From Bacillota bacterium (GTDB lineage: Bacteria > Bacillota > DTU025), in assembly GCA_019136685.1 (NCBI GenBank), contig JAGVTS010000143.1:1-62939 (forward strand): a DNA stretch of 62,939 bases, read 5' to 3'. The notes beneath the pieces were generated by a model. It searched no databases, was not told where the DNA came from, and saw only the letters and a list, made by a program, of their open reading frames with translations. Positions 2-15,539 of this stretch are shown here, piece by piece. Numbering within the stretch: the first letter of the stretch is position 1; each line of letters begins with the position of its first letter. A program made the translations under genes and the position numbers.

Positions 2-604
2 CAGGAATTCTCTCCGACTCTCAGGTCGACCGAGAAGGGCAACCCGCTCGAGGACGAGGGCGGGGTGGCGGCCATCACCGCCGGCCTTGACACGTCGATC
101 GCGGGATTCGACATCGCTGTCGACGGCGAGATTTTGGGCAGGAACAACGATGGCAAGCTCGACGATGAGCGCTCCATCGGAGCGGCTGTGGGCACCAAGG
201 TTGGATGGATCGACGTGGCCGCGGGCCACAAGGTCACCCGGAAGGACCTGACGGAGGAGGAACCCTCCACCATCAACACCACAACTCTAGGAGTTGGGTT
301 CACAGAGCGGCCGATCTTGCCTAACCTGGTCATGAGCGCCAGCTACAATGCCACGATCACCAACTTCTCGCTAGCTGGGATGAGGCACGTGGCCAAGGCT
401 GCCGTCGGCGCTGATGTAGGAGCGTTCCGCGGAGTCAGCGTGTCCGGCATGATAGACACGCTGCCTGAGGATGGTCCGGGACGCCAGCTCGGCGTGGAAT
501 ACGGCGCGCCGTGCGGAGTCAAGCTCGGATACTCCTACGAAGACTACGCCGACGAAGCAGAGGACACTAACAGGGTCTACGCAGGCCTGGAGGTCTCCTT
601 CTAG
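2..604 (+). CDS. C-terminal part of a beta-barrel-like envelope protein (5' end outside window)
   Basis: The reading frame is open from the left edge to the TAG at 602-604, so only the last ~200 residues are visible. The segment is rich in alternating polar/hydrophobic stretches separated by acidic turns (for example around GVKLGYSYEDYADE) and ends in the strand RVYAGLEVSF. A terminal Phe after an amphipathic strand is the classic C-terminal signal of outer-membrane beta-barrels recognised by BamA-type machinery. That rule is established knowledge; applying it here is inference, because the N-terminus (signal peptide, possible SLH domain) cannot be seen. A secreted beta-rich surface protein is the main alternative. 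It converges with the L,D-transpeptidase gene on the other strand. Confidence 0.55.
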   Translation, partial: QEFSPTLRSTEKGNPLEDEGGVAAITAGLDTSIAGFDIAVDGEILGRNNDGKLDDERSIGAAVGTKVGWIDVAAGHKVTRKDLTEEEPSTINTTTLGVGFTERPILPNLVMSASYNATITNFSLAGMRHVAKAAVGADVGAFRGVSVSGMIDTLPEDGPGRQLGVEYGAPCGVKLGYSYEDYADEAEDTNRVYAGLEVSF

Positions 605-722: not shown

Positions 723-1910
723 CTATGGGATTCGTAGGCTCTGGCCCGGATAGATATCGCTGCTGAGCAGCTGGTTCAATGCCACAAGCGCCTCGGGAGT
801 CGTGCCGAATGCCGAGGCTATGCCGGATAGCGAGTCGCCGGGCTGCACCACGTACTCGCCGGACCCAGCCTGGCCGGTCGATGTTGCCGATGCGCCGCCC
901 CTAGGCCCTCCAGGTATTCTCAGCCGCTGCCCCACGTAGATAGTGGTGCTGGTCAGGTTGTTCGCGGACATCAAAGCCTGGACTGTAGTGCCGTACCTTC
1001 GCGCAATCAGGAACAGGGTGTCGCCGGGCTGGACGATGTAGTCGGTCCCGGTGGTCGTAGGGCGCGCAACTGCTCCAGGGATCGCAAGTACCTGGCCGAC
1101 GGTTATCATGTCGGTTGTCAGATTATTGGCGCGCCGGATAGCGTCCACTGTAGTTCCAAACCTTCGCGCGATAAGGAACAGCGTGTCGCCGGCTCTCACT
1201 ACGTATGTTCCGGGCGCCGGCGCAGGGGCGGGGACGCCCGCTGTTATCAATACAGGCAGTCCCACCTGCACCTGCTCGAATAATGACTCGACGTCGGCAT
1301 TGTACATCCTCACGCACCCATTCGATACCGCGTGACCGATAGACTGAGGCTGATTAGTGCCGTGTATTCCGTGCCCGCGCCTGGTGAACGCCATCCAGCG
1401 CGTGCCGAACACACCGCCGGGGTTGAACGCCTTGTTCAGGACGCTCCAGGAGCCGGCCGGAGTCGGGGTGGCCGGCTTGCCCACTGCAATCGGGTAGTGC
1501 GCGGCTTCTATTCCGCCCCTGAGCAGTGCTAGGCGACGCTGGGCCAGGCTTATCTGTATCGAGAGCGGCTGGCGGCTCTGGGTAGCCTGCCTGGGAGAGA
1601 TGTCCGCATCAGGGCTCGCCGGACCGAGGGGATCGGCGGTCGCCATATCCGGGGGATCGTCAGGGAAGCAAGCATCTTGGGGCAGCGGGAGGCCGTCGAA
1701 GAGCAGACGCCATGTCTCGGCGTCTACGATGCCGGTTTCAGGAAGACCCACGCTTGCCTGGAACTGCCGTACTGCGAGTTCGGTCCGGAGCCCGAATATG
1801 TTGTCCACTTCGCCTAGGGGGAAACCTCTGAACGCGAGCTGTTCCTGAACATTGCCTACGGGAACCACAGTCATGCCTCGCATTAGCACCAATGGCCTGC
1901 ATTCAGGCAA
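723..1910 (-). CDS. L,D-transpeptidase (YkuD) with N-terminal peptidoglycan-binding domain and three LysM repeats
   Basis: Predicted to cross-link or modify peptidoglycan by L,D-transpeptidation. Domain order: a PG_binding_1-like helical domain (about residues 15-75), a YkuD catalytic domain (about 115-225) with the motif HGTNQP followed by SNGCVRM, whose Cys is the family nucleophile, and three LysM repeats (about 235-280, 290-335, 350-395), each beginning with a Y-x-V-x-x-GD(T/S)L pattern. No signal peptide is visible, as in several spore-associated YkuD proteins, so it may act on spore or forespore wall; this is inference. The start is taken at TTG 1910, 9 nt after AGGTGG; TTG at 1916 is possible but only 3 nt away. 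It is a single gene, convergent with the barrel fragment and divergent from msmX. Confidence 0.88.
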   Translation of the reverse strand: MPECRPLVLMRGMTVVPVGNVQEQLAFRGFPLGEVDNIFGLRTELAVRQFQASVGLPETGIVDAETWRLLFDGLPLPQDACFPDDPPDMATADPLGPASPDADISPRQATQSRQPLSIQISLAQRRLALLRGGIEAAHYPIAVGKPATPTPAGSWSVLNKAFNPGGVFGTRWMAFTRRGHGIHGTNQPQSIGHAVSNGCVRMYNADVESLFEQVQVGLPVLITAGVPAPAPAPGTYVVRAGDTLFLIARRFGTTVDAIRRANNLTTDMITVGQVLAIPGAVARPTTTGTDYIVQPGDTLFLIARRYGTTVQALMSANNLTSTTIYVGQRLRIPGGPRGGASATSTGQAGSGEYVVQPGDSLSGIASAFGTTPEALVALNQLLSSDIYPGQSLRIP

Positions 1911-1951
1911 TTGCAATCACCACCTGTCTGCTTTCTGCACCATTATACGCG

Positions 1952-1993: not shown

Positions 1994-2061
1994 AATAAAG
2001 CTTGTTGAACCGGTGGGCGAAAGGTGCCGCCGATTAATATAAAGCAGTGGGAGGACGTCAA

Positions 2062-3162
2062 ATGGCAGGAGTAAAACTGGAGCATGTGTACAAGAAATTC
2101 GGCAATGTGGTCGCGGTAAACGACGCCAATTTGGAGATCCGCGACAAGGAGTTCCTGGTGCTGGTGGGCCCTTCGGGGTGCGGGAAGTCGACGACCCTTC
2201 GGATGGTGGCCGGGCTTGAGGAGATCACATCAGGCGACATCTACATCGGCGACACTCTGGTCAACGACATCCCGCCGAAAGACCGCGATATCGCAATGGT
2301 TTTCCAGAACTACGCTCTGTATCCACACATGGACGTCTACAACAACATGGCTTTCGGTCTCAAGCTGCGCAAGTTCCCCAAAGCCGAGATCGACAACAGA
2401 GTGAAGGATGCCGCCCGGATTCTGGGCATCGAGAACCTTCTGGATCGCAAGCCTAAGGCCCTGTCGGGCGGGCAGAGGCAGCGCGTTGCCGTTGGGCGTG
2501 CCATCGTGCGCGAACCCAAGGTCTTCCTTATGGACGAACCCCTGTCCAACCTGGATGCCAAACTGAGGGTTCAGATGAGGGCGGAACTGTCAAAACTCCA
2601 CAACAGGTTGCAGACGACGATAATCTACGTCACCCACGACCAGACCGAGGCTATGACCATGGGCGACCGGATAGTGGTGATGAAGGATGGCTTCATCAAA
2701 CAGGTCGGAGCGCCTCTCGAGATCTATGAGCAGCCCGATAACATGTTTGTCGCCGGCTTCATCGGCAGCCCTGCCATGAACTTCGCACCGGGCGTTCTCC
2801 GCAAGGAAGGCGATGAGTACATCGTGGATTGCGAGAGCTTCCGCATCGGAGTGCCGCGCGGCAGGTTCCGTGAGATAGAGAAGTATGTCGATGAGAATGT
2901 GATCATGGGGATCAGGCCGGAGAACATCGAGGATATCGACTTCGCTCCGGACGCGCCTGAGGATAGAATAGTCAAGTGCATGGTGGACGTGATCGAGCCT
3001 ATGGGCGCCGAGGCCTACCTCTACTTGACGACCGGACCCCACTCATTTGTGGCCAGGGTCAACCCTCGCACCAGTGCCCGAGACGGCGAGCCTCATTCAG
3101 TCGTACTCAACATGGACGAGTGTCACCTGTTCGACCCGTCTACTGAGAATACCATTAGGTAG
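2062..3162 (+). CDS. msmX: Carbohydrate ABC transporter ATP-binding protein, MsmX/UgpC type
   Basis: Cytoplasmic ATPase subunit that energises CUT1-type sugar importers. Visible motifs: Walker A GPSGCGKST (residues 36-44), Q-loop VFQNYALYPHM, signature LSGGQRQ (about 134), Walker B VFLMDEP, D-loop SNLDAKLR, switch THDQ, then the C-terminal OB/TOBE regulatory region with MGIRPENI. At 366 residues it matches MsmX, MalK and UgpC. The ATG at 2062 is used because GGGAGG precedes it; an in-frame GTG lies at 2047. It stands alone with no permease beside it, as B. subtilis msmX does, and MsmX is known to serve several importers. The importer at 37.0-40.0 kb lacks an ATPase and is a candidate client (inference). 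Confidence 0.92.
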   Translation: MAGVKLEHVYKKFGNVVAVNDANLEIRDKEFLVLVGPSGCGKSTTLRMVAGLEEITSGDIYIGDTLVNDIPPKDRDIAMVFQNYALYPHMDVYNNMAFGLKLRKFPKAEIDNRVKDAARILGIENLLDRKPKALSGGQRQRVAVGRAIVREPKVFLMDEPLSNLDAKLRVQMRAELSKLHNRLQTTIIYVTHDQTEAMTMGDRIVVMKDGFIKQVGAPLEIYEQPDNMFVAGFIGSPAMNFAPGVLRKEGDEYIVDCESFRIGVPRGRFREIEKYVDENVIMGIRPENIEDIDFAPDAPEDRIVKCMVDVIEPMGAEAYLYLTTGPHSFVARVNPRTSARDGEPHSVVLNMDECHLFDPSTENTIR

Positions 3163-3239: not shown

Positions 3240-4274
3240 ATGGGCATAGAAGGCGCGTCTCTCTTCATCGGCGTTGATCTCGGGGGCACGAAGATAGCTT
3301 CGGCGCTGGTGGACGCGGATATGAGGATGATCGATCGCGTCAGGGTTGCCACCCGGCCCGAGGAGGGGCCGAGCGCCGTCATAGGCAGGATGCTCGATAC
3401 AGTGCAGGACCTGACCTTGAGAAATGGGTGCGGCGTGGGCGAGGTCCGGGCCTTAGGCATCGGCTGCCCGGGGCCTCTAGACCCAAAAACCGGCATAGTG
3501 CTGGACGCGCCCAATCTGATGTGGAAGGACGTCTCTCTCGCGGCCCCGATGGCTGAGGCCACCGGGAGGCCTGTGTATCTTGAGAATGACGCCAACGTCG
3601 CGGCGCTTGCAGAGAACAGATTAGGCGCCGGCAGAGGCGCGAGAAATATGATGTACATCACTGTCAGCACCGGCATAGGTAGTGGGCTGATTCTAGGCAG
3701 CAAGCTGTACGTGGGCGCCGCGGGGTCCGCCGGCGAGCTGGGTCACGTGACCATGGTCGCTGATGGCCCGCTCTGCGGGTGCGGGAATCGTGGGTGCCTG
3801 GAGTCGCTGGCGTCGGGCACTGCGATCGCCCGGCGAGCGCGCGAGACTGCGGTGCGCCCTGGGGGTGAAGGAATCCTCAAGGCTGCGTGTGGCGACATCA
3901 ACGCCATAGACGCATCGCTGGTCGCATCGGCGGCGGCGGCAGGCGATGCGGCGGCGGCAGCCATATTGCGCGACGCATTCGAATATCTTGGCATTGCAGT
4001 GGCCAACGTCGTAAACCTGCTCAATCTGGATATGGTAGTAATCGGCGGTGGAGTGGCGCGCGTCGGCGATGTGCTGTTTGATACTGTGCGACGTCTGGTC
4101 AAGCTGCGATCCTTTGCGTGCCTGGCCCGGGATGTACTGATAGTTCCGGCCTCGTTAGGAGCCGATGCCGGCGCCCTTGGAGCCGCGTGCTATGCAGCTG
4201 AACGACTGGCCCGGGAGGAGCGGGACGCGGGCTGCGACCCAAGTATCTGCCATGACCTGGAGGGACCCGAGTGA
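3240..4274 (+). CDS. glcK: ROK-family glucokinase
   Basis: Phosphorylates glucose (or a close hexose) with ATP in the cytoplasm, feeding glucose-6-phosphate to glycolysis. The N-terminal phosphate-binding motif GVDLGGTKI is at residues 12-20, the sugar-site motif ENDANVAALAE is about 117-127, and the ROK zinc/sugar signature reads ELGHVTM followed by CGCGNRGCLE. Length (344 aa) is slightly above the usual 310-325. GGGGGTGG precedes the ATG at 3240. The stop overlaps the GTG of the next gene, so they are translationally coupled, which links sugar phosphorylation to the two envelope proteins downstream. A regulatory ROK protein is excluded by the lack of a winged-helix N-terminus. Confidence 0.9.
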   Translation: MGIEGASLFIGVDLGGTKIASALVDADMRMIDRVRVATRPEEGPSAVIGRMLDTVQDLTLRNGCGVGEVRALGIGCPGPLDPKTGIVLDAPNLMWKDVSLAAPMAEATGRPVYLENDANVAALAENRLGAGRGARNMMYITVSTGIGSGLILGSKLYVGAAGSAGELGHVTMVADGPLCGCGNRGCLESLASGTAIARRARETAVRPGGEGILKAACGDINAIDASLVASAAAAGDAAAAAILRDAFEYLGIAVANVVNLLNLDMVVIGGGVARVGDVLFDTVRRLVKLRSFACLARDVLIVPASLGADAGALGAACYAAERLAREERDAGCDPSICHDLEGPE

Positions 4275-5176
4275 GGAGACTGCTGCCCGTACTGGCCGTG
4301 GTCCTGACTGTGGCAGTCATCGCGACGCTGCCGCTGCCATGCGTCGGCCAGACGCTTGTGGTATGGGAGTCCGATGACCCGGCCGGCGATGACGATGGGC
4401 CGGGTACATACACATATCCCACAAACCCGGCGTTCTCGCCTTTTTCGGGAATCTTCGACCTCACCACGTTCAGGGTCCTTCACGATCCCGAAAACGTGTA
4501 CTTTGAGATTACCCTGGCAGGGATCTCCAATACGTGGAATGCGCCTGAGGGGTTCAGCCACCAGCTCATCAATGTTTACGTGGATACAACCCCCAATGTC
4601 GGGCGCGTTGATACGCTGCGCGACGGCCCATTCGTGCTCTTCGACTCGCGACACGCATGGGACGTCAACATCAAGATCATGGGATGGGGCGGTACCCGCA
4701 TTTACTTCGCGTCAGACGATGAGTCGTCGCCAGGAGTATACGACGGAGTTTTCGCAGAGGCGCTCCCCGACGGCAAGACGATTCGGGCCGTGCTGCCCAA
4801 AAAGGTAGTCGGCGAGCCGTCCGACATTTGGAAATACTACGTTTTGGTGGCCTCGCAAGACGGTTATGGCCCTGACAATCACCGGCCTGTGATGGCCGCG
4901 ACCGGCGCCTGGGTGTTCGGCGGCGGATCTGACCTGGATGTGAACCCCAACGTCATCGACATTCTGGCGCCTGAGTCCGGTTTGAGGTCTCAGCACAACC
5001 AGCTTGGCTCATGGAGCGAGTCCGAGCGCCGCCTGGCTGTGCTGTATCCGGCTAACCCAGATGGTCGGCTGGCCCTCGGGGTTCGCCCGGCGATGGTTGT
5101 TGTGGCGGCCCTGCTGGTCATAGCCGTGTTGGGATACCTGGCGGCGAGGGCCGTTCGTGGCAGGCCAGGCAGCTGA
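4271..5176 (+). CDS. Membrane-anchored protein with glucodextranase C-terminal-like (DOMON/CBM9-like) domain
   Basis: An N-terminal signal sequence (about residues 1-26, cleavage near VGQ), a beta-sandwich-like ectodomain (about 28-250), and one C-terminal membrane helix (about 273-292) followed by an Arg-rich tail. The ectodomain pattern (an opening Asp-rich segment DDPAGDDDGPGTYTYPTN, then FDLTTFRV, VYFEITL, INVYVD and WDVNIKIMGWGG) resembles the C-terminal module of glucodextranase and amylopullulanases, where it binds carbohydrate or the cell surface. Family assignment is from memory of that pattern. The GTG start overlaps the glucokinase stop (GTGA), and the GH57-like membrane protein follows after 14 nt, so a surface glucan-binding pair is likely. 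No catalytic module is present. Confidence 0.7.
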   Translation: MRRLLPVLAVVLTVAVIATLPLPCVGQTLVVWESDDPAGDDDGPGTYTYPTNPAFSPFSGIFDLTTFRVLHDPENVYFEITLAGISNTWNAPEGFSHQLINVYVDTTPNVGRVDTLRDGPFVLFDSRHAWDVNIKIMGWGGTRIYFASDDESSPGVYDGVFAEALPDGKTIRAVLPKKVVGEPSDIWKYYVLVASQDGYGPDNHRPVMAATGAWVFGGGSDLDVNPNVIDILAPESGLRSQHNQLGSWSESERRLAVLYPANPDGRLALGVRPAMVVVAALLVIAVLGYLAARAVRGRPGS

Positions 5177-5190
5177 GGAGGACTTATCCT

Positions 5191-7629
5191 GTGATTCGGT
5201 GGAAACCATTGGTACGCGGCGCTGCAATTGCGGCCGCTGTGTTTGTGGCTGCATGCCTGGCGACCGCTTGCCCATGTCAAGCGGCGCGCCGCACTTGGTT
5301 GGACTGGCTTTTCGGCCCGCCCGCGCAGACGGAAGGCGGGGCGGCCGACGAACCTGCCGACAGGGCCCTCGAAGTGGTATTCGCATTCTACATGACCGGC
5401 GACGTTTCGCCGGAGTCGCTGGGCCCCACGTCATCTACCTGTGAACAACTGTTGGACATGCTCCTTGGGGAGCCTGGGCGCAAGTTCTCTGTTGGAATGT
5501 CGGCGCGGCTCGCGTCGGCGCTCGCCTGGTCGGGCTCGCGAGCGCTCGGGCTAATGCGTGACGGCGTATCTCGTGGACAGTTCGAACTCATGGGCTCCAC
5601 ACACTCTGATGCTGTTCTGGCCGCGCTGGACCCGTGGGACGCGCGCCTGGCTGTGCACTACGGCGCCAGCACACTTTCGCATGTGTTTGGCAAAGCCCCG
5701 ACAGGCTTCTGGAACCCATCGGGTGTATGGAGGCAGGAGATCGTGCTGCCTATCAACGCCGGGGGCTATTCGCACACGATGATCGACAGCAAGATAGTGG
5801 ATGTGAGCGGATTGGACGGGCTGCCTGCCCATGCTCCCCTTCGCGTGTCATGGGGCGGTCGCGAAATCGTGGTTTTCCAAACGGACGCCGACTTCGCCCG
5901 TGCTGTGGACGAGAGCGTCCGAGCAGGTTCGCCCGCGTCTGCCATTGCCTATCTTGAGCGAGCATACGCCGAGGATCTGGCGGACGCCGCAGTCGTGGTG
6001 TACGCGCGGGAGGTGCAGGCAGGCGACGAAGGCCAGTTCTTGCAAGGGTTCGCTCCCCTTCTCACGGCCATTGATAAGGAGCCTTGGCTCAGGCTAACCA
6101 CATTGGAGGATAGAGTAGAGTCAGGCCCGCGCCCGCGCGCGGCGGCCCAGATGCCCGAGGGCGAGCCGACGCAGGTGCGCCAGGCTGCCGCCGCCGCTGG
6201 ACATGCCAACTGGCAGGACTACAACGCCAATTCCCGCGTGCTGCGGGATACGAGGAGTCTATACGGGGACGTGCGCCGACGGATTCAGGCCGTGGAAGAG
6301 GACTTGCTTAAGGCGGGAGTATCTCAGGCCCTTGCGCCTGCCGCCTCGCGCCTCCTAGACCACGCCAAGCTCGTGTTCGCATGGCATCAGCGCGGGTTTG
6401 GCCGCCCCGGCGCGGAGAGCGGCGGATCAGGTCAGTGGGAGGCGGTTCGGAAAGCCTATGTCGCCGCCCTCGCCGCATGGCAGTGTGCCCATCCGACTAC
6501 GTCGGTTTACCGGGAAGATGTAGATAGAGACGGGATTGAAGAAGTGGTAGTGGTCAATCCCACCGACATGTTCGTGTTGTCTCCCATTGGCGGCAAGATG
6601 CTCTATTGGTATGATCTCGAGCATGGTGATCAGGTAGTCGGATCAGATCTGGGTGAGGCAAAGCGCGGGGCGCTGGTCGACTCGATTGCCGGGGCGGCGG
6701 TTCCCTCGCCCGGGCTTGAGGCGACTACGTACAGTGTGGAAATGGGCGAGGAGTCTTCAAGCGTGGTGTTTGAGGCGGCTAGCGGCGCCGCAAGGCTGCG
6801 AAAGGAGTTCACTCCGGGCCAGAGAGGGTTCCAGGTGGAGTATACCTTGCGTGCCCGAGGCCGCGTGGACTTCAGCGTAGTCAACTCTTTCAGCCCCGAC
6901 CCGGATCGGATTGTGGTTGACGGCAGGGACGGGCTGGCCTACATGCACGCCGATGGATCGCCGGCCAGCGCGCTAGCGCCCGGCTCATCTTTCGGGCTGG
7001 CCAATGTGGTTTCCGGTAGTGCAGTAGCGGCGACTCCTAACCCCCGAGGCGCAGACACTGTGCCGGCGGCAGAGGTGTGGTCTGACTCTGCCCTTTTCGA
7101 CAGAAGTCTGTCGATCGGGTACAAGCTGCAGATGTGGCCGGGATCCTCAGCTGCAATCTCCGTCGGGTTCGAGCGGGTCAGGATCAAGGCATCGGCGCCT
7201 CCTGTGCTGTGGATTGAGCCCAGCGGTGATAGCCTCACGGCAGCGATACCTTCCTACACGCGCCGAGCGGCAGTGCGCCGGCTGTCGGCGGAGGGTTTCC
7301 CTGTTGACACGCTCATGCTCACGGCTGCTCGTGGCCAGGAGACCAACGCGCCCGACGCGGTCGCACCGATGCCGCCGGGAGAGTACGACCTCGTAACCAC
7401 GTCGGTGGCGGGGCGGACTACCACCATCGAGCGGGCTGATCGATATACTTCTGCAGGGACGAGGTTCGAATTCTTCCCCCGAATCGCCGATTCCCATGTC
7501 ATACTGACGTCCGGATATCGCCGGGTGGGGTCCGTGGCAAGCATTCTGTGGGCTTTGCTGGGCGCCATCGCGATTGCAGGGGGAGTCGTGATGATGGCGC
7601 GCTCTGCGCGGCGCAAGGCTCCTCGCTGA
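5191..7629 (+). CDS. Membrane-anchored GH57-like protein, predicted catalytically inactive
   Basis: 812 residues: signal or anchor segment (about 7-31), GH57-like (beta/alpha)7 domain (about 60-310), helical region (about 330-430), beta-sandwich C-terminal region like those of GH57 amylases (starting near YREDVDRDGIEEVVV, about 435-760), and a terminal membrane helix (about 783-803) with a basic tail. The GH57 resemblance is clear in QFELMGSTHSDAVLAALD and GFWNPSGVWRQEI. In active GH57 enzymes the matching strand carries the nucleophile Glu (as in WLPECG of the two neighbours); here it reads WNPSG, with Ser or Gly instead. The acid/base Asp region (VVVYAREVQAGDEGQ) also lacks an obvious Asp at the expected place. 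I infer a surface glucan-binding or sensing pseudoenzyme. GTG start after GAGGAGG. Confidence 0.7.
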   Translation: MIRWKPLVRGAAIAAAVFVAACLATACPCQAARRTWLDWLFGPPAQTEGGAADEPADRALEVVFAFYMTGDVSPESLGPTSSTCEQLLDMLLGEPGRKFSVGMSARLASALAWSGSRALGLMRDGVSRGQFELMGSTHSDAVLAALDPWDARLAVHYGASTLSHVFGKAPTGFWNPSGVWRQEIVLPINAGGYSHTMIDSKIVDVSGLDGLPAHAPLRVSWGGREIVVFQTDADFARAVDESVRAGSPASAIAYLERAYAEDLADAAVVVYAREVQAGDEGQFLQGFAPLLTAIDKEPWLRLTTLEDRVESGPRPRAAAQMPEGEPTQVRQAAAAAGHANWQDYNANSRVLRDTRSLYGDVRRRIQAVEEDLLKAGVSQALAPAASRLLDHAKLVFAWHQRGFGRPGAESGGSGQWEAVRKAYVAALAAWQCAHPTTSVYREDVDRDGIEEVVVVNPTDMFVLSPIGGKMLYWYDLEHGDQVVGSDLGEAKRGALVDSIAGAAVPSPGLEATTYSVEMGEESSSVVFEAASGAARLRKEFTPGQRGFQVEYTLRARGRVDFSVVNSFSPDPDRIVVDGRDGLAYMHADGSPASALAPGSSFGLANVVSGSAVAATPNPRGADTVPAAEVWSDSALFDRSLSIGYKLQMWPGSSAAISVGFERVRIKASAPPVLWIEPSGDSLTAAIPSYTRRAAVRRLSAEGFPVDTLMLTAARGQETNAPDAVAPMPPGEYDLVTTSVAGRTTTIERADRYTSAGTRFEFFPRIADSHVILTSGYRRVGSVASILWALLGAIAIAGGVVMMARSARRKAPR

Positions 7630-7734
7630 TGGCTTGTCATAGCGCATAATTCGCATCTTGCGGCCAAACATAAGAGTGCGGCGCCGGCGGCCGGCCGGGA
7701 CCGTAGTCTCTTGCTTTCCGGAGAGGGATGCGCG

Positions 7735-8928
7735 GTGCGTGTGATGATGATCAGCTGGGAGTACCCGCCGCGAGTAGTGGGAGGGCTGGCGCGCCATGTT
7801 CAGGAACTCGCGAGAGCAATGGCGGACAGTGCGGAAGTGCATGTAGTGACTTGCGCCGCGGAAGGCAGCAGTCCGATTGAGCGCGACCGGAGCGTATGGG
7901 TGCACCGGGTAAGTCCCATAGGACCCTCGGTAGATGATTTCATGTCATGGGCGATGCAACTCTCTCATGCCCTCCTCGCCTGCGGTTGCCGCGTTGCCGC
8001 AGGTAGCGGGCCGTTCGACCTTGTGCATGCACACGACTGGACAGCGGCGCTAGCCGGCGCCGGCCTCAAGCGCGAAATGGGCCTTCCTCTTCTGGCCACC
8101 ATCCACGCCACTGAATTCGGGCGCAACGGCGGCCTCGGTACCCCGACGCAGCGCCGAATATCCGATCTGGAGTGGTTTCTTTGCTATGAGGCATGGCGGG
8201 TGATCGTCTGCTCGCTGCACATGCGGAGCGAGGTCATGGGCGTGTTCGGGCTGCCGGCCGACAAGGTGTGTGTGATACCAAACGGCGTGGACGCCGAACA
8301 GTTCGTCCAGGCCAGTGCGTATCGGGGCGCTCGCGGCGCCGGCGAGTCCGACGGTAGCATCATACTTTTTGTGGGACGGCTCGTGCACGAGAAGGGCGTG
8401 CACATACTGATCGAAGCGATGCCCAAGATACTGAGATACTGGCCCGGAGCTAGGCTTGTGATCGCCGGCAGAGGGCCGGCTGAGGAAAGCCTGCGTAAGC
8501 TGGCTGTCGGCCTTGGCCTCGGGGGCAGTGTGTCAATGGTCGGTTTCATTCCGGATGATGAGCGCAACCGGCTGTACGGCATGGCCGCTGCGGCAGTGGC
8601 GCCCAGTCTCTATGAACCATTTGGGATCACAGCTCTTGAAGCCATGGCAGCCGGCACGCCCCTCATTGCAGCCGACACGGGAGGCCTCGCAGAGATCGTC
8701 AAGAACGGCGTGAACGGATGGCAGTTCTACGCGGGCAGCCCGAATTCGCTTGCTGACGCAGTCCTGCACGTCTTGCATAGCCCGGAGGCGGCCGGGAAAG
8801 CCGCGGAGGCTGCGCGCTGCGAAGTGCTGTCTGCATACGATTGGAAGGCCATTGCGCGCAGGACCATCAGCGTATACGCAGAGGTCCTGAGTGACGCCGC
8901 GGCGCAGGAAGAGGCGATGGCCAGGTGA
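7735..8928 (+). CDS. GT4-family glycosyltransferase (glycogen synthase-like)
   Basis: Retaining GT-B fold enzyme that transfers a sugar from an NDP-sugar, probably in alpha-glucan synthesis. The N-terminal half has the Starch_synth_cat-like opening SWEYPPRVVGGLARHV with the glycine-rich loop, and HDWTAALAG (about residue 102). The C-terminal half has FVGRLVHEKGVHILIEAM and the donor-site E-x7-E element EPFGITALE (about 285-293) followed by AMAAGTPLIAADTGG. GTG at 7735 is chosen because GGAGAGGG lies 7 nt upstream; a TTG at 7711 lies before that site. The next gene overlaps by GTGA. Acceptor and donor cannot be read from sequence; the GH57 branching-type neighbours favour an alpha-1,4-glucan product, but mannosyl transfer is possible. 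Confidence 0.85.
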   Translation: MRVMMISWEYPPRVVGGLARHVQELARAMADSAEVHVVTCAAEGSSPIERDRSVWVHRVSPIGPSVDDFMSWAMQLSHALLACGCRVAAGSGPFDLVHAHDWTAALAGAGLKREMGLPLLATIHATEFGRNGGLGTPTQRRISDLEWFLCYEAWRVIVCSLHMRSEVMGVFGLPADKVCVIPNGVDAEQFVQASAYRGARGAGESDGSIILFVGRLVHEKGVHILIEAMPKILRYWPGARLVIAGRGPAEESLRKLAVGLGLGGSVSMVGFIPDDERNRLYGMAAAAVAPSLYEPFGITALEAMAAGTPLIAADTGGLAEIVKNGVNGWQFYAGSPNSLADAVLHVLHSPEAAGKAAEAARCEVLSAYDWKAIARRTISVYAEVLSDAAAQEEAMAR

Positions 8929-11378
8929 AAGCGGTGATCATGGCAGGAGGCAAGGGCACCCGGCTTCGACCGCTCACCTGTACACTCCCCAAACCCATGG
9001 TGCCGGTGGCATGCCGGCCCATGATGGAGCACGTCGTGAACTTGCTTCTGGCGCACGGCTTTCGCGACCTAGCGTGTACCCTCTGCTACATGCCCGACAC
9101 CATCCAGAGCCATTTCGGCGACGGGGCTTCCCTCGGGTGCTCTATCAGATACTCCGTGGAGGAGACGCCGCTCGGCACTGCCGGCAGTGTCCGTGCATTG
9201 GCCGACTTCCTGGACGAGACATTCCTGGTGATCAGCGGTGACGCGCTAACCGATGTCGATCTTGCTTCGGCGGTCGAATTCCACAGGCAGAAGGGCGCGG
9301 CCGCGACCATCGTACTCACCCGAGTAGAGACACCGCTAGAATACGGAGTAGTCATAGTAGACGGCGATTGCCGCATCACACGATTTCTGGAAAAACCCAG
9401 CTGGGGAGAGGTATTTAGCGACACAGTGAACACGGGGATTTACGTGCTGGAGCCGGACGTAATGGAGCTGGTCGAGGCTTCGCGAGAGTTCGATTTCAGC
9501 AAGAACCTGTTTCCGCGACTCCTCGGCGATGGGTATCCGATGTTCGGGTACGTGGCTGAAGGATACTGGTGTGACGTGGGTAACCTGGAGCAGTACCGCA
9601 ACACCCATCTGGACATTTTGGATGGACGAGTCCGCGTGGCCATTCCTGGCGAACTAGTGGATGAGGGTGTATGGATCGACGAAGGAGCCGAAATCGAAAC
9701 CGGCGCCATCCTCAGGGCGCCGGTGGTGGTCGGGCCTCGGGCACGAGTGGAAAAGGGCGCCGTGGCCGGCGATTACTCAGTGATAGGCGCCGCGTCTATA
9801 CTGGCGGGCGGCTCTTCTGTGCGGCGCTCCATACTGTGGCCGGGCGCGTTCGTGGGGCAGAATGCCCAGGTGCATGCGGCTATCATCGCGTCCAGGGTGA
9901 GTGTGAAGGCCGGCGCTTCGGTGCTGGAGGGGGCAGTTGTCGGCTCGGGTAGCTCCATAGGCGAGCGAGCCCAGGTGAAGGCAGGTGTGAAGATCTGGCC
10001 TGATAAGGCGGTGGACGGCGGTTCCCAAGTCAATGCCAGCCTTGTGTGGGGAGCGCCGTGGTCAAAGCGCCTTTTCGGGAGATTGGGCGTGGCCGGGCTA
10101 TCCAACATAGAGGTCACCCCGGACTTCGCCGCCCGTTTGGGCGCAGCCTATGCGTCGTGCCTGCCTGAGGGGGGCACTGTCACGGTGTCGAGCGATGTCC
10201 ACCCAGCTTCCAAGATGACTAGGGCGTCTTTGGCCTGCGGCGTCATGTCAGTCGGCGCGGCCGTAGCCGATCTGGGCGATGCGACTACTGCGGTGGCGAG
10301 ATACGGCGTGCCTGCGCTCAGGGCAGCCGGAGGCATGCATGCACGAGTGTCGCCGACTGATGATAACGTCACGGTCATTGAGTTTTTGGACTCGCGGGGC
10401 ATCAATATTGATAAGGCGCTGGAGCGCAAGATAGAAAATGCCCTGCTCACCGAGGATTACCGCAGGGCCGCTCCGAGCCGTGTCGGGGGCCTCCTCAGGG
10501 AGACCGGAATGACGGCGCTGTACCTGGATGCCATGGAACGGGCGGTCGATGCGGAGTCGATCAGGAGAGCGCGTCTTTGCCTGGTGGCCGGATACGATGA
10601 AGACTACCTGGGCGACGTCATGAGCCTGATTCCCGGCGCGTTCTGCTGCACGCTCAAGCAGACACGTGCCTTCCAGGGCGCCTGGGCCATGGCTGAACTC
10701 GCGGACGCGGTCGTGGCCGAAGGCGCCCGGCTGGGGGTCCTGCTCGACAGGAACGCAGAGCAGTTGGCCCTGGTGAATGAACGAGGCGAAAGCGTGTGCG
10801 ATGAGGACGTGTTGGCCCTGATCTGTTCTGCACTGCTCAAATCGCGCGCGGGAGGAACGGTAGTCGTGCCTGTCACCGCTCCCGGAGCTATCGAGAAGGT
10901 GGCGATGGGTCTTCGTGGGCGTGTAGTGCGGTCTCAGGCCAACCCCAGGTCCATGATGGAGAAGGCTATCGAAGCCAGGGTGACAATGGGCGAAGCCGGC
11001 GTCCCACAGTTTCAGCCCATGCTAGACGGTCTCTTCGCCCTAGTCGTGCTGCTGGAGCAACTTGCGCAGGGCAGCGAGCCGCTTTCGCTGATGGTCAGTG
11101 CAATGCCGCGGTCCTTTATGACCCGGCGCCTTGTGGATTGCCCGTGGCAATCGAAGGGCCGGGTGATGCGGCATCTGATCGAGGAGACCGACAGCGAAGA
11201 AGTCCAGCTAGTGGATGGCATTAAGGTCTACACCGATCAGGGTTGGACGCTCATCTTGCCCGATTCGGAGGATCCCGTCTTTCACGTCTATAGCGAGGCG
11301 GCAAGTCAAGAGATCGCTGAGGAGATCGCCGGCATCTACGTATCCAGGATCGCGGACGCCATGGGCGATGTCGAGTAG
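8925..11378 (+). CDS. NDP-sugar pyrophosphorylase / left-handed beta-helix / degenerate phosphomutase fusion
   Basis: An 817-residue fusion often annotated mannose-1-phosphate guanylyltransferase. Residues 1-~230 are a nucleotidyltransferase domain (MAGGKGTRLRPLT at 6-18, LPKP, metal Asp in ISGDALTDVD). About 250-365 is a hexapeptide left-handed beta-helix. About 385-810 is an alpha-D-phosphohexomutase-like region. The mutase landmarks are eroded: the phosphoserine loop TASHNP appears as ARVSPTDDN, the metal loop DGDGDR as LLDRNAEQL, and the phosphate-binding RPSGTEP as LPDSEDP. The nucleotidyltransferase is probably active, supplying NDP-glucose or GDP-mannose to the overlapping GT4 gene; the mutase part is probably regulatory. 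GTG start overlaps the GT4 stop. Its 3' end overlaps the opposite-strand branching enzyme by 43 bp. Confidence 0.82.
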   Translation: MKAVIMAGGKGTRLRPLTCTLPKPMVPVACRPMMEHVVNLLLAHGFRDLACTLCYMPDTIQSHFGDGASLGCSIRYSVEETPLGTAGSVRALADFLDETFLVISGDALTDVDLASAVEFHRQKGAAATIVLTRVETPLEYGVVIVDGDCRITRFLEKPSWGEVFSDTVNTGIYVLEPDVMELVEASREFDFSKNLFPRLLGDGYPMFGYVAEGYWCDVGNLEQYRNTHLDILDGRVRVAIPGELVDEGVWIDEGAEIETGAILRAPVVVGPRARVEKGAVAGDYSVIGAASILAGGSSVRRSILWPGAFVGQNAQVHAAIIASRVSVKAGASVLEGAVVGSGSSIGERAQVKAGVKIWPDKAVDGGSQVNASLVWGAPWSKRLFGRLGVAGLSNIEVTPDFAARLGAAYASCLPEGGTVTVSSDVHPASKMTRASLACGVMSVGAAVADLGDATTAVARYGVPALRAAGGMHARVSPTDDNVTVIEFLDSRGINIDKALERKIENALLTEDYRRAAPSRVGGLLRETGMTALYLDAMERAVDAESIRRARLCLVAGYDEDYLGDVMSLIPGAFCCTLKQTRAFQGAWAMAELADAVVAEGARLGVLLDRNAEQLALVNERGESVCDEDVLALICSALLKSRAGGTVVVPVTAPGAIEKVAMGLRGRVVRSQANPRSMMEKAIEARVTMGEAGVPQFQPMLDGLFALVVLLEQLAQGSEPLSLMVSAMPRSFMTRRLVDCPWQSKGRVMRHLIEETDSEEVQLVDGIKVYTDQGWTLILPDSEDPVFHVYSEAASQEIAEEIAGIYVSRIADAMGDVE

Positions 11379-12958
11379 ATGGTGTAGTCTATGTTAGGGA
11401 ATATGTTGTCTATCGACTCCAGGTCGCTCACCCACTCATGGTCCACATTCGAGCTGCGAATGTCGCTATAGAGGCGGTTGAACCTGGATATGTGGCTCTT
11501 GGTGCGCTCCACGGCATAATCCACGCAAGTGCCGGCCTTCATGATGAACGCCCAATCGGAGCTTTGCGCCAGCATCAGTTCGCGGGCTGCCTGGTTGAGC
11601 GCTCGCCGGACCAGATCGGGCTGGGGCATGGCATGGTCATCGGCAAGCCGGCTCATCCTGTGCGCCATCATGTGCAGATGCCGGTAGATCCAGTGGTTGC
11701 AGTCTGCCAGCCACACTTCACTGTAGCCCATGTAGCCCCATGATGACATGGACGGTACGGACACCTGAGCGCGCGGGCGCTCTTCTAGGTAGTCTCCGGG
11801 GGTAACGAGCTTGATGACGTCTTGGTCGTAGGCGACCTTGCGTATGACGAACTCCAGGAACTCGGGGCCTTCAAACCACCAGTGCCCGAAGAGCTCAGCG
11901 TCGTACGGAGCGACTACTATGGGTCTTATGTCCATCACTGACGCCAGGTGCTCGATCTGCCGTGCGCGGTTGAACACGAAGTTGCCTGCGTGTGTAGCCG
12001 CTTTGTTGATGGCCCATTCTCGCACATACGGTTCCTTGTATTCCGTGCGGCCGGTGACGCGGTAGTATTTCATGCCCGTATGTGTTCTTACCGGGCAACC
12101 GCCCATGAATGGCCGTATGTAGTCCCAGTCGAGGTCGTAGGCGATATCGCGGTAGAACTCCCTGTAGTCGAAGTCGCCGGGGTATCCCTCGTGCGCGCTC
12201 CAGACCTGCTTGGACGATTCCATATCTCGCCCGAAGGCAGCCACGCCCGAAGGGCAGTAGACGGGCGCGAACACACCATATCTCGGCCTGGGGCTGGCAT
12301 TTTCTATGCCGTGCGCATCGGTGAAGAAATACCGGACTCCCGCCTCCCGCAGGTAGGCGTCGACGCCCGGATAATACCCGCATTCGGGTAGCCACATCCC
12401 TTGGGGACCAGTCCCGAATGTCCTGCGGTAGTAATCCACGGCTGCGATGATCTGGGCCCGGGCCGCAGACGGACACACCTCCATGAGTGGCAGATAGCCA
12501 TGGGTTGCTGCCGTGGTTATCAGCTCTATTCGGCCCTCATTGGCTAGGCGCGCGAACCCTCCGACTACATCACGCTGGAGAGTGTCATTGTAGACTGATC
12601 TGACATGCTGGAACCGTTCCAGGTACATCCTTGCGGTTTCGCGGAACCCAGGCTGCCATCTGGTCCGATACGTCTCGAGCTCGGCTAAGCGGCACAGGCC
12701 GTCGATGAACTCGGAGAAGCGCGCCTGGAGAAGCGGGTCGCGGCACATCGACATTAGTGTAGGGGAGAGCGATACTGTGAGTCGGTATGGCACTCCCTCT
12801 GCCGCGAGTTTAGCCAGCATCGTGTATAGCGGGATATATGTCTCCGTCAGAGCTTCGTAGTACCATTTCTCCTCCAAATACGCCTCGCCGCGTGCGTGGC
12901 GTACGTACGGAAGGTGAGCATGCAGCACTATTGCCAGGTAGCCCCGGGGTTCACCCAT
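11336..12958 (-). CDS. GH57 1,4-alpha-glucan branching enzyme
   Basis: Cuts alpha-1,4-glucan and re-attaches chains through alpha-1,6 links (family knowledge for GH57 branching enzymes of about 520-560 aa). Conserved GH57 elements are present: N-terminal VLHAHLPYVRH, TTAATHGYLPLM, the nucleophile strand GMWLPECGYYPG, and the acid/base strand VVAPYDAELFGHWWFEGP, followed by the C-terminal helical domain with MSSWGYMGYSEVW and DWAFIMKAG. The ATG at 12958 is chosen because AGGTGA sits 7-8 nt upstream and partly overlaps the stop of the DUF4912 gene, giving tight coupling; ATG at 12976 is upstream of that site. Intact catalytic residues contrast with the membrane GH57-like protein at 5.2 kb. Gene order on this strand is DUF4912 then this gene. 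Confidence 0.92.
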   Translation of the reverse strand: MGEPRGYLAIVLHAHLPYVRHARGEAYLEEKWYYEALTETYIPLYTMLAKLAAEGVPYRLTVSLSPTLMSMCRDPLLQARFSEFIDGLCRLAELETYRTRWQPGFRETARMYLERFQHVRSVYNDTLQRDVVGGFARLANEGRIELITTAATHGYLPLMEVCPSAARAQIIAAVDYYRRTFGTGPQGMWLPECGYYPGVDAYLREAGVRYFFTDAHGIENASPRPRYGVFAPVYCPSGVAAFGRDMESSKQVWSAHEGYPGDFDYREFYRDIAYDLDWDYIRPFMGGCPVRTHTGMKYYRVTGRTEYKEPYVREWAINKAATHAGNFVFNRARQIEHLASVMDIRPIVVAPYDAELFGHWWFEGPEFLEFVIRKVAYDQDVIKLVTPGDYLEERPRAQVSVPSMSSWGYMGYSEVWLADCNHWIYRHLHMMAHRMSRLADDHAMPQPDLVRRALNQAARELMLAQSSDWAFIMKAGTCVDYAVERTKSHISRFNRLYSDIRSSNVDHEWVSDLESIDNIFPNIDYTIYSTSPMASAILDT

Positions 12959-12965
12959 TGCGAAA

Positions 12966-13805
12966 TCACCTGCCATCTTTGAGCCCGGTCCGGGCCACAG
13001 TCCAGGATACACGGCGTGACATCAGCCGGTCAGCCGATTCGGCGACCACTTCGATGGGGAGTTCGCCCACGGGGAGCGCGATTCTCACTGAGAAGGTCCC
13101 GTCAGAAGCCGTGTTCACTGCCATGCCCGACACGCTGACCTGCGACCCGGGCTCGGTTGCGCCATATACCACGAGTTCTGCATCTGCCCGCAGCCAGTAC
13201 TGGCGCTCGGCCATCTCCGGGGCGCCGGTGGGCATAGGCGGGCCCAGGGGGCTGGACACCGCTCCTACTCCTCCCGAGCCCAGGGCTATCTCCCGTGCCC
13301 ATTCCTCCGCGCGCAGCCTCCGGGCCGGCATACCCGGCGATGCGGTGTAGATCCGGGGGCCGTGCGAGATCGTCTCTAGCGCACGAATGGAAAGCCATTC
13401 CTGGTCGCGAACCTCTGAAGGCCCTACCCGCGGCATGTGTACTACATTGGAACGCGCAATGAACCGAAACTCGTCTGAATCAGGCGTCAAACCCAGGTCC
13501 ACGCAGTAAGACCTGTCGGGCTCGCATACGTTGATGTACCAGTTGTTCGCAAAGGGATGGACGTCCACCGCGACTTGTTTCGCGAAGTCAGCCCCGTCGC
13601 GACCGGTCACGTCATTCACCCGAAGAGTAAGGCGGCTGCTCAGGATGCTGCTTCCGAGCTCGCGGGCGAGGGTCAGCGCTGTCTCCTCGGATATTTCCCA
13701 GTAGGCGTGCATCCAGAATGGATCTTGCACTTGCAGCACAATCCGGGTTTCGCCGTAGCCCTCGGGTACTTGGCACGCGTTAGCCTCGCCAGACGAGTCG
13801 TGCAC
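12966..13805 (-). CDS. DUF4912 domain protein associated with GH57 enzymes
   Basis: About 280 residues. The first half (after PEGYGETRIVLQVQDPFW) carries the DUF4912 pattern HAYWEISEETALTLA, then WYINVCEPDRSYCVDLGL, predicted as a beta-rich domain with similarity to glucan-binding modules. The second half contains a short immunoglobulin-like strand set (RADAELVVYGATEPGSQVSV then SDGTFSVRIALP). DUF4912 proteins are recurrent neighbours of GH57 branching enzymes, but no function is established. No signal peptide is seen, so a cytoplasmic glucan-binding or scaffold partner is inferred. GTG at 13805 is used because AGGAGGT lies 7 nt upstream; GTG 13826 precedes that site. It is translated just ahead of the branching enzyme. 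Confidence 0.8.
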   Translation of the reverse strand: MHDSSGEANACQVPEGYGETRIVLQVQDPFWMHAYWEISEETALTLARELGSSILSSRLTLRVNDVTGRDGADFAKQVAVDVHPFANNWYINVCEPDRSYCVDLGLTPDSDEFRFIARSNVVHMPRVGPSEVRDQEWLSIRALETISHGPRIYTASPGMPARRLRAEEWAREIALGSGGVGAVSSPLGPPMPTGAPEMAERQYWLRADAELVVYGATEPGSQVSVSGMAVNTASDGTFSVRIALPVGELPIEVVAESADRLMSRRVSWTVARTGLKDGR

Positions 13806-13934
13806 GACAGGACCTCCTCGCGACACCGAAACGCAATCTCTTCGGTATTCTGTCCGGCCTCAATCGGGGTTATCCCGCCAGGATAGCGCTTAGCGGTTGG
13901 GTAAGAATACTTCATGTTGTAGGAGGTGTGACGC

Positions 13935-15539
13935 ATGTCGTCTTGCGGCTCATTTGCCCTGGTGCTTCATTCACACATTCCATACTGTCGCAAGTCAGGT
14001 GTGTGGCCGTTTGGTGAGGAGTGGGTGTTCGAGGCGATGGCCGAAACATACATACCAATCCTAGACCTGCTATCGGCGATCGAAAGCTCCGGACTTGGGC
14101 CTCGTGTCGCTGTTAGTCTGTCCCCGGTTCTCGCTGAGCAGCTGGCAGATCATTACATGAAGGCACGGTTTCTGGAATACGCCGAAATGCGCAGGAAGGC
14201 TGCAGCGCACGACATCGAGAGGCACGAGGCTGAGCATGACGACAAGCGGGCCCTGCTGGCCAGGAAATACGCAGAGTACTACGAGTACGTGGCGGACAGA
14301 TTCTCGAACCACTACGACGGCGATCTGCCGGGCGCTCTCGCCGGCCTAGCATCTCGCGGCGCGGTCGAGCTTCTGGCCACCGCCGCGACACATGCCTACC
14401 TCCCGCTGCTGTCTGCGGAGCGAGCGCGCGTTCAGATGAGGTTGGGATGCGACGCGTGCGAGCGCCATTTCGGCGTCAGGCCCAGAGGCGCCTGGCTGCC
14501 GGAGTGCGGTTATCGTCCGGGGGTCGTTGAACGAGTCTTGACTGAGTGCGGCATAGACTACTTCATTGTCGACACACATGCTGTCGCCGGAGGCGCAGTA
14601 AGGGAGGCGTATGGGGCAGAGGCGACCTGCTCGGGGGGCGCCGCGTCTCCTGTGCCGATCCTGAGCCCGAGCATGGCCACGCTCAGGCCATACAGACTCC
14701 TTGGCTCCGAGGTGTCGGTGTTTGCCCGGGATGAGGTCACTGCCGCGCAGGTATGGTCGAGGGAAACGGGGTATCCGGGCGACGGCAACTACCGCGAATT
14801 CCACAGGCGTGACAGCGTCTCAGGTCTGCAGTACTGGCGCGTCACCAGCAAGCTCCTGGATCTTGGCCAGAAACAGCTGTACGATCCTGTCGCCGCAGGC
14901 GACATCGCCCGGGAACATGCCGCGCACTTCGGTGAGCTGGTCGCCGCGAGGCTTGTGAGATACCGCGACGCATGCGGCGAGCAGGGATTGATAGTTGCCC
15001 CGTATGACATGGAGCTCTTTGGGCATTGGTGGCACGAGGGCATAGTCTGGCTGAAATACGTGCTCACCCTGCTTGCCGACGACGGGCGCGTAGCTCTCAC
15101 GACTCCCGGCGCGTATCTGGACTCCAACAGACCTTCCGCAGAGATAAGCATCGCCGAGTGCTCGTGGGGACACGGAGGTAAACATGGTACGTGGGCTAAT
15201 GCTGACACCGCCTGGATGTGGGAGTCGCTGGCCCGGGCAGAGGCGCTTCATTGTTCGCTTTCGAAAAAGCGCGACACGCTTCGAGGCGCACTACTGGCCA
15301 TGGCGGATCAAGCCGGCCGCGAGCTGATTCTGCTGGAGGCCAGTGATTGGCCGTTTCTGGTCACTACAAGGCAGGCAAAGGAGTACGCCGAGGAGCGCTT
15401 TCTGCGCCACCTGGGCGACTTCGAAACATTGGCCGGCGCCGCCCTGAGCGGGGTTGGCGACGACAAGGCAATGGCCGCGCTGAGTACTATCGCTTCGCGC
15501 GACTCGCTTTTCGCCTGGGTGGACGGCGAGAAACTGTGA
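13935..15539 (+). CDS. Second GH57 branching-enzyme-type protein (DUF1957 type)
   Basis: 534 residues with the same architecture as the divergent gene at 11.3-13.0 kb but clearly divergent in sequence. Visible: VLHSHIPYCRKSG, ATAATHAYLPLLS, nucleophile strand GAWLPECGYRPG, acid/base strand IVAPYDMELFGHWWHEG, then SWGHGGKHGTWANADTAWMW and ASDWPFLVTT. All catalytic landmarks are intact, so 1,4-alpha-glucan branching or 4-alpha-glucanotransferase activity is expected. An extra charged insertion (about residues 85-125) is absent from the paralogue. AGGAGGTG precedes the ATG. It is transcribed divergently from the DUF4912/branching pair across ~130 bp and is followed by the phosphoglucose isomerase after ~40 bp, suggesting glucan turnover feeding glycolysis. 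Confidence 0.9.
   Translation: MSSCGSFALVLHSHIPYCRKSGVWPFGEEWVFEAMAETYIPILDLLSAIESSGLGPRVAVSLSPVLAEQLADHYMKARFLEYAEMRRKAAAHDIERHEAEHDDKRALLARKYAEYYEYVADRFSNHYDGDLPGALAGLASRGAVELLATAATHAYLPLLSAERARVQMRLGCDACERHFGVRPRGAWLPECGYRPGVVERVLTECGIDYFIVDTHAVAGGAVREAYGAEATCSGGAASPVPILSPSMATLRPYRLLGSEVSVFARDEVTAAQVWSRETGYPGDGNYREFHRRDSVSGLQYWRVTSKLLDLGQKQLYDPVAAGDIAREHAAHFGELVAARLVRYRDACGEQGLIVAPYDMELFGHWWHEGIVWLKYVLTLLADDGRVALTTPGAYLDSNRPSAEISIAECSWGHGGKHGTWANADTAWMWESLARAEALHCSLSKKRDTLRGALLAMADQAGRELILLEASDWPFLVTTRQAKEYAEERFLRHLGDFETLAGAALSGVGDDKAMAALSTIASRDSLFAWVDGEKL

Follow-up and report, generated by a model that had tools for sequence, protein, structure and literature searches.

The paired genes and the altered active site

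The window considered here is a stretch of 62,939 nucleotides (contig JAGVTS010000143.1 of GenBank assembly GCA_019136685.1, positions 1 to 62,939, forward strand) from a bacterium of the GTDB lineage Bacillota; DTU025. Two adjacent genes in it encode a stand-alone Glucodextran_C protein, here called GdxC, and a protein of glycoside hydrolase family 57 (GH57) that has lost the nucleophile of its family, here called GH57ps. An earlier note, made from the letters of the DNA, had described the two as adjacent genes coupled to glucokinase and encoding secreted, C-terminally membrane-anchored proteins with glucan-enzyme folds, and that description has largely held: both open reading frames were recovered at the positions given there, and both proteins match their families above the Pfam cut-offs. 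The features of the pair are as follows, where CSR denotes a conserved sequence region of GH57 and L050 is a homologue described below.

4271..5176, + strand: GdxC, a Glucodextran_C (DOMON-like) protein, predicted to be exported and anchored by a C-terminal transmembrane segment (PF09985, E=2.6e-67; 1UG9; hydropathy)
5191..7629, + strand: GH57ps, a probable GH57 pseudoenzyme of apparent 4-alpha-glucanotransferase descent, predicted to be exported and anchored by a C-terminal transmembrane segment (PF03065; 1K1W; hhalign; tree)
5710..5730, + strand: CSR-3 segment WNPSGVW, in which Ser177 (codon 5719-5721) replaces the nucleophile Glu (alignment; 1K1W Glu123 via L050)
5998..6015, + strand: CSR-4 segment VYAREV, in which Glu274 (codon 6010-6012) replaces the acid/base Asp (alignment; 1K1W Asp214 via L050)
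7171..7520, + strand: clade-specific membrane-proximal segment of GH57ps, about residues 661-776 (alignment; no Pfam match)
7522..7602, + strand: C-terminal transmembrane segment of GH57ps, residues 778-804, followed by a basic tail (hydropathy)

The GTG start of GdxC overlaps the stop of a ROK-family kinase gene by 4 bases, GH57ps starts 14 bases past the end of GdxC, and a purine-rich, Shine-Dalgarno-like sequence precedes each. GdxC matches the whole Glucodextran_C domain (positions 3-228 of 228; 227.1 bits against a cut-off of 22) as well as the structure of glucodextranase domain C (1UG9, E=1.9e-13), although in glucodextranase this domain is fused to an enzyme, whereas GdxC is stand-alone and anchored. 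GH57ps matches Glyco_hydro_57 (E=7.7e-11; 42.3 bits, cut-off 21.2) and runs from a signal peptide through the GH57 barrel and a C-terminal region of 4-alpha-glucanotransferase type to a membrane-proximal segment, which is new, and a transmembrane helix. An N-terminal hydrophobic segment and a C-terminal hydrophobic helix with a basic tail are found in both proteins and in nearly all of their orthologues (residues 1-32 and 265-297 in GdxC), and by hydropathy and the positive-inside rule, rather than by a signal-peptide predictor, both are predicted to be exported and held by a C-terminal anchor with the short tail inside. The membrane-proximal segment of the GH57ps clade, of about 115 residues, has invariant residues of its own, is absent from the active relatives and gave no match in a Pfam search.

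The earlier note had also read WNPSGVW as standing in place of the WLPECG of active neighbours and VVVYAREVQ as the acid/base strand, with both chemical residues lost and the fold-defining segments retained. The catalytic machinery of the family is a Glu/Asp pair, according to a GH57 survey (PMC6037648). The homologue L050 aligns to 1K1W, the 4-alpha-glucanotransferase of Thermococcus litoralis, with Glu151 on Glu123 and Asp244 on Asp214. Glu123 is the established nucleophile and Asp214 the established proton donor of that enzyme. In GH57ps, WNPSGVW does occupy the place of WLPECG, and in a multiple alignment the position of Ser177 is Ser in five, Gln in one and Gly in two of eight orthologues, and never Glu; the loss of the nucleophile extends, as aligned, throughout the clade. 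The other segment had also been correctly located, but not as a plain loss: Glu274 maps to the column of the acid/base Asp because L050 bridges the alignment to 1K1W, and the orthologues have Glu in six cases, Asp in one (the G008 copy) and Ala in one (G005), so that a carboxylate appears usually to be kept at this site (seven of the eight). A first, gapped alignment that placed Ala opposite the Asp was dropped, and bridging through L050 and a second homologue, L064, gave a gap-free register. As for the fold-defining segments, they remain only in part: the GH57 (beta/alpha)7 barrel is still matched, but CSR-1 has lost its His/Asn/Gln motif, CSR-2 varies among orthologues and survives in only some members of the clade, the CSR-4 motif is lost and CSR-5 is not recognisable in the alignment.

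Constraint has shifted off the old active site in this clade. Among active 4-alpha-glucanotransferases the entropies of CSR-1 to CSR-4 are 0.53, 0.52, 0.16 and 0.32, as compared to 1.10 for the barrel, whereas in the GH57ps clade they are 1.17, 1.24, 0.82 and 1.35, as compared to 1.32. Judged from these alignments, GH57ps is very likely a pseudoenzyme with respect to the classical mechanism.

Descent and maintenance of GH57ps

The closest solved relative of GH57ps is the T. litoralis enzyme (1K1W/1K1Y; single-sequence E=4.7e-5 for 1K1W), and it was the only solved structure strongly matched by the family profile (E=6.9e-24 over the barrel); this enzyme is active, with Glu123 and Asp214 in place, in contrast to GH57ps. 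Profile comparison by hhalign gave 564 columns with E=1.3e-19 against the active 4-alpha-glucanotransferase-type proteins of the phylum and 519 columns with E=2.2e-68 against L050 and L064, and at such values (near 1e-19 and 1e-68) the GH57 homology is far beyond chance. In a maximum-likelihood tree the eight GH57ps orthologues, which come from two families, form one clade (97/97) with L050 and L064 as its sister (98/97), away from the active 4-alpha-glucanotransferases and the branching enzymes. It appears that GH57ps arose once, from a 4-alpha-glucanotransferase-like GH57 protein. L050 and L064 (genome G091, family f42) are the nearest relatives found, at 27-28% identity; they retain WNPER and YAEDAEATGLW-type motifs. 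L050 shares a signal-like N terminus with GH57ps, but both homologues have both catalytic residues, lack a transmembrane anchor and do not adjoin Glucodextran_C in the contigs seen. The active 4-alpha-glucanotransferase-type homologues examined, unlike GH57ps, lack the signal peptide, the transmembrane segment and the membrane-proximal segment. A search of viral contigs for further homologues yielded none.

Two observations concern the relatives themselves. Inspection by eye of L067:1157-7742 (G091:C166) places apparent ABC solute-binding-protein and permease genes directly before the catalytically intact L064 and a LacI-type regulator after it. In a homologue of L064 from G050 (L037:1075-2523) the whole catalytic half of the barrel is cleanly deleted in frame, which may be a real loss or an assembly error; this protein was considered as a second pseudoenzyme and, given the possible error, was not used as evidence.

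Measured against a genome of the same genus (L009/G001, UBA5389), with dS near 1 and the values therefore approximate, the ratio of nonsynonymous to synonymous substitution rates (dN/dS) is 0.17 for GH57ps, 0.23 for GdxC, 0.16 for the downstream GT4 gene, 0.16 for the ROK gene and 0.07 for malK. Within GH57ps the dN of the barrel, 0.129, is below that of the C-terminal region and the transmembrane segment. The frame is intact in seven genomes from five genera of the family, with one copy cut by a contig edge. Since dN/dS is low and length is conserved, GH57ps is not decaying and, by these measures, is maintained under purifying selection. That the gene is on its way to loss is extremely improbable: its high divergence and the split copy in G008 would speak for decay, but the break in G008 coincides with a stretch of N, so that an assembly gap is its probable cause, and simple decay was ruled out by the dN/dS and length conservation just described.

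Operon, partner and cellular location

The pair lies within a run of genes for sugar import and glycogen metabolism, whose other members are listed here.

2047..3162, + strand: ATPase of a sugar ABC importer, MalK/MsmX type, opening the co-directional run (Pfam ABC_tran, OB_MalK, TOBE_2; syntenic in G001-G005 and G008)
3240..4274, + strand: ROK-family sugar kinase, probable glucokinase (PF00480, E=2.4e-74; TIGR00744 below its cut-off)
7711..8928, + strand: GT4 glycosyltransferase, glycogen-synthase-like (PF00534, E=1.7e-44)
8925..11378, + strand: fused nucleotidyltransferase-phosphohexomutase, NTPT/PGM (PF00483, PF02878)
11336..13012, - strand: GH57 branching-enzyme homologue with intact WLPECG (PF03065, PF09210)
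12966..13826, - strand: DUF4912 protein (PF16258, E=2.8e-33)
13935..15539, + strand: second GH57 branching-enzyme homologue (PF03065, PF09210)

The order YkuD-malK-ROK-GdxC-GH57ps-GT4-NTPT/PGM-GH57BE-DUF4912-GH57BE (BE, branching enzyme) is identical in all seven genomes whose contigs span the locus (the window, G001-G005 and G008); the contigs of G006 and G007 stop inside or at GH57ps and fall outside this count. The two genes of the pair thus stay together wherever the locus is spanned, and the link to intracellular glucan turnover proposed in the earlier note is borne out as a genomic linkage. A third family of the order, represented by three genomes, lacks GH57ps, GdxC and the GH57 branching enzymes alike. 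The first gene of this order, which encodes LysM and a YkuD L,D-transpeptidase domain (window 723-1916), is divergent from malK and is kept beside the glycogen operon in all of the syntenic genomes. The C-terminal part of the DUF4912 protein weakly matches Glucodextran_B (E=4e-5, below the cut-off), another glucodextranase-like module in the cluster.

Other families have stand-alone anchored GdxC proteins but no GH57ps, and 10 of 12 inspected loci lie near alpha-glucan or sugar-import genes: GT4 directly follows GdxC in G050 and G018, ROK adjoins it or is nearby in G049, G050, G059, G012 and G023, GH15 and a debranching enzyme follow it in G022 and a debranching enzyme in G036, and sugar ABC genes are near it in G015 and G059. 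A GH57 branching enzyme (BE_C) is present in 20 of 21 GdxC-bearing genomes as compared to 16 of 40 others (p=2e-5), and outside the order in 11/12 as compared to 16/37 (p=0.006), counts that ignore phylogeny. Because anchored GdxC is found across the phylum without GH57ps, the latter is best read as a later insertion beside an older and more widespread partner.

The placement of the two proteins at the cell surface, as the earlier note had it, is doubtful because the genome carries POTRA/Omp85 (BamA-type), TamB-like and OmpH-like genes side by side. An outer membrane, demonstrated in Limnochordia and in other diderm Bacillota (PMC11456536), is very probable in this organism too, and GdxC and GH57ps would most simply reside in the inner membrane and face the periplasm. 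Among 399 genomes of the phylum, Omp85 was found in 72 of the 96 with Glucodextran_C and in 30 of the 303 without (odds ratio 27), and by family in 28/36 and 9/105 (odds ratio 37); these counts ignore phylogeny and include fused enzymes, and eight families carry Glucodextran_C without Omp85. The association fits a periplasmic role and may partly reflect shared ancestry; it suggests that a Glucodextran_C protein of the stand-alone, anchored kind is typical of Bacillota with an outer membrane. The LptD family, tried as another outer-membrane marker, gave no match, with a model that also misses several two-membraned controls. At the edge of the window (2-604) lies the end of a protein that resembles an outer-membrane beta-barrel, with a terminal Phe and no Pfam match.

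What the pair may do

The explanation that we favour, and hold tentatively, is that GH57ps is a maintained, non-hydrolytic, GH57-derived periplasmic subunit beside a Glucodextran_C protein that would bind sugar or polymer, serving the uptake of alpha-glucan or maltodextrin tied to glycogen synthesis. A GH57 protein would have gained export and an anchor on the outer side of the cytoplasmic membrane, where it joined the older tethered Glucodextran_C protein; the latter may retain chains of alpha-glucan or maltodextrin on the periplasmic side of the inner membrane. GH57ps would act, without hydrolysis, as a structural partner of GdxC (a scaffold, orienting or sensing subunit), the pair would pass oligosaccharides to importers that use the MalK-type ATPase of the operon, and the ROK kinase and GT4/GH57 enzymes would then convert the sugar into glycogen. 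Of the alpha-glucan receptor or scaffold put forward in the earlier note, the exported, anchored and conserved pair survives and a receptor acting through the old GH57 cleft is weakened; any glucan binding is probably better ascribed to GdxC, the older and more widely distributed member of the pair.

Several results weigh against this explanation. The entropies of CSR-1, -2 and -4 are close to that of the barrel and do not indicate that the old cleft still holds a conserved site for sugar, GH57ps is highly divergent (30-47% identity between genera, with one long branch in the tree), the operon itself contains no permease gene and the counts for GdxC and branching enzymes take no account of phylogeny. 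AlphaFold models of the 767-aa mature protein and of the 255-aa barrel, each made with two sequences only (the window and L009), were discarded at mean pLDDT (predicted local distance difference test) values of 32 and 40.

Some of the same evidence would suit a GH57 ectodomain that binds protein rather than sugar and stabilises or localises a MalK-served importer, in the manner of rBAT/4F2hc, the SLC3 proteins whose inactive or orphan alpha-amylase-type ectodomains stabilise and localise transporters (PMC8537225). We regard this as rather unlikely. The single transmembrane anchor on an inactive glucan-enzyme ectodomain, the relaxed sugar-site motifs, the membrane-proximal segment with its invariant residues and the malK gene that opens the run are all in its favour; no permease is adjacent, however, and the two cases resemble each other in architecture alone, an analogy in which the vertebrate proteins are of GH13 type, have an N-terminal transmembrane segment and serve amino-acid transporters. 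A broader proposal is an order-specific periplasmic complex in which the tethered non-catalytic subunit links glycogen synthesis with an alpha-glucan-binding protein or with a transporter; such a complex would be a bacterial, GH57-based counterpart of rBAT/4F2hc, or else an alpha-glucan sensor, and we consider it improbable to a similar degree. It is also unlikely that the pair is a module for anchoring or ordering the cell envelope in Bacillota with two membranes, with Glucodextran_C binding a wall or envelope polymer instead of storage glucan: Pfam describes Glucodextran_C as an SLH-like binding module and the domain co-occurs with Omp85, but the limits on those counts, the eight families without Omp85 and the alpha-glucan or sugar-import neighbours at most inspected loci argue otherwise. 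Quite improbable is an active enzyme of altered chemistry (e.g., substrate-assisted, inverting or phosphorolytic) in which Glu274 serves as the general acid or base and the usual nucleophile is dispensed with. The acidic residue kept in most orthologues and the strong purifying selection on the barrel would accord with it, but G005 has Ala at this site, the residues of CSR-1 and CSR-2 are lost or variable and the nucleophile site holds Ser, Gln or Gly.

Bacterial GH57 "4AGT-like" proteins missing one catalytic residue or both were described by Martinovicova and Janecek in 2018 (PMC6037648), and GH57ps fits that description: it is bacterial, of 4-alpha-glucanotransferase kinship (tree, hhalign) and without the catalytic nucleophile. 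Export, a transmembrane anchor, a Glucodextran_C partner and an operon do not figure in the passages compared, and a search of the open-access literature did not find an exported, anchored, paired and operon-fixed dead GH57 form. GH57 proteins without catalytic residues and the Glucodextran_C domain were already known; what is new here is the exported, anchored, operon-locked form paired with Glucodextran_C. Such GH57 proteins have been catalogued for years with no function assigned, and the present clade is a clean case: its close relatives are intact, the loss apparently happened once, and operon and partner gene do not vary, so the question of what a dead GH57 protein does becomes testable on two soluble ectodomains. 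In this group of Bacillota with two membranes, GH57ps looks like an enzyme that has been recycled into a binding or scaffold part.

A separate lead, on how such bacteria handle glucans in their periplasm, comes from the phylum-wide link between Glucodextran_C and outer-membrane genes. The same genome also encodes a 1052-aa, exported-looking GH57 enzyme (L040:8178-11336; G000:C136) with intact-looking WPSE and LDGE motifs and Glucodextran_C fused at its C terminus, a second and independent pairing of both folds.

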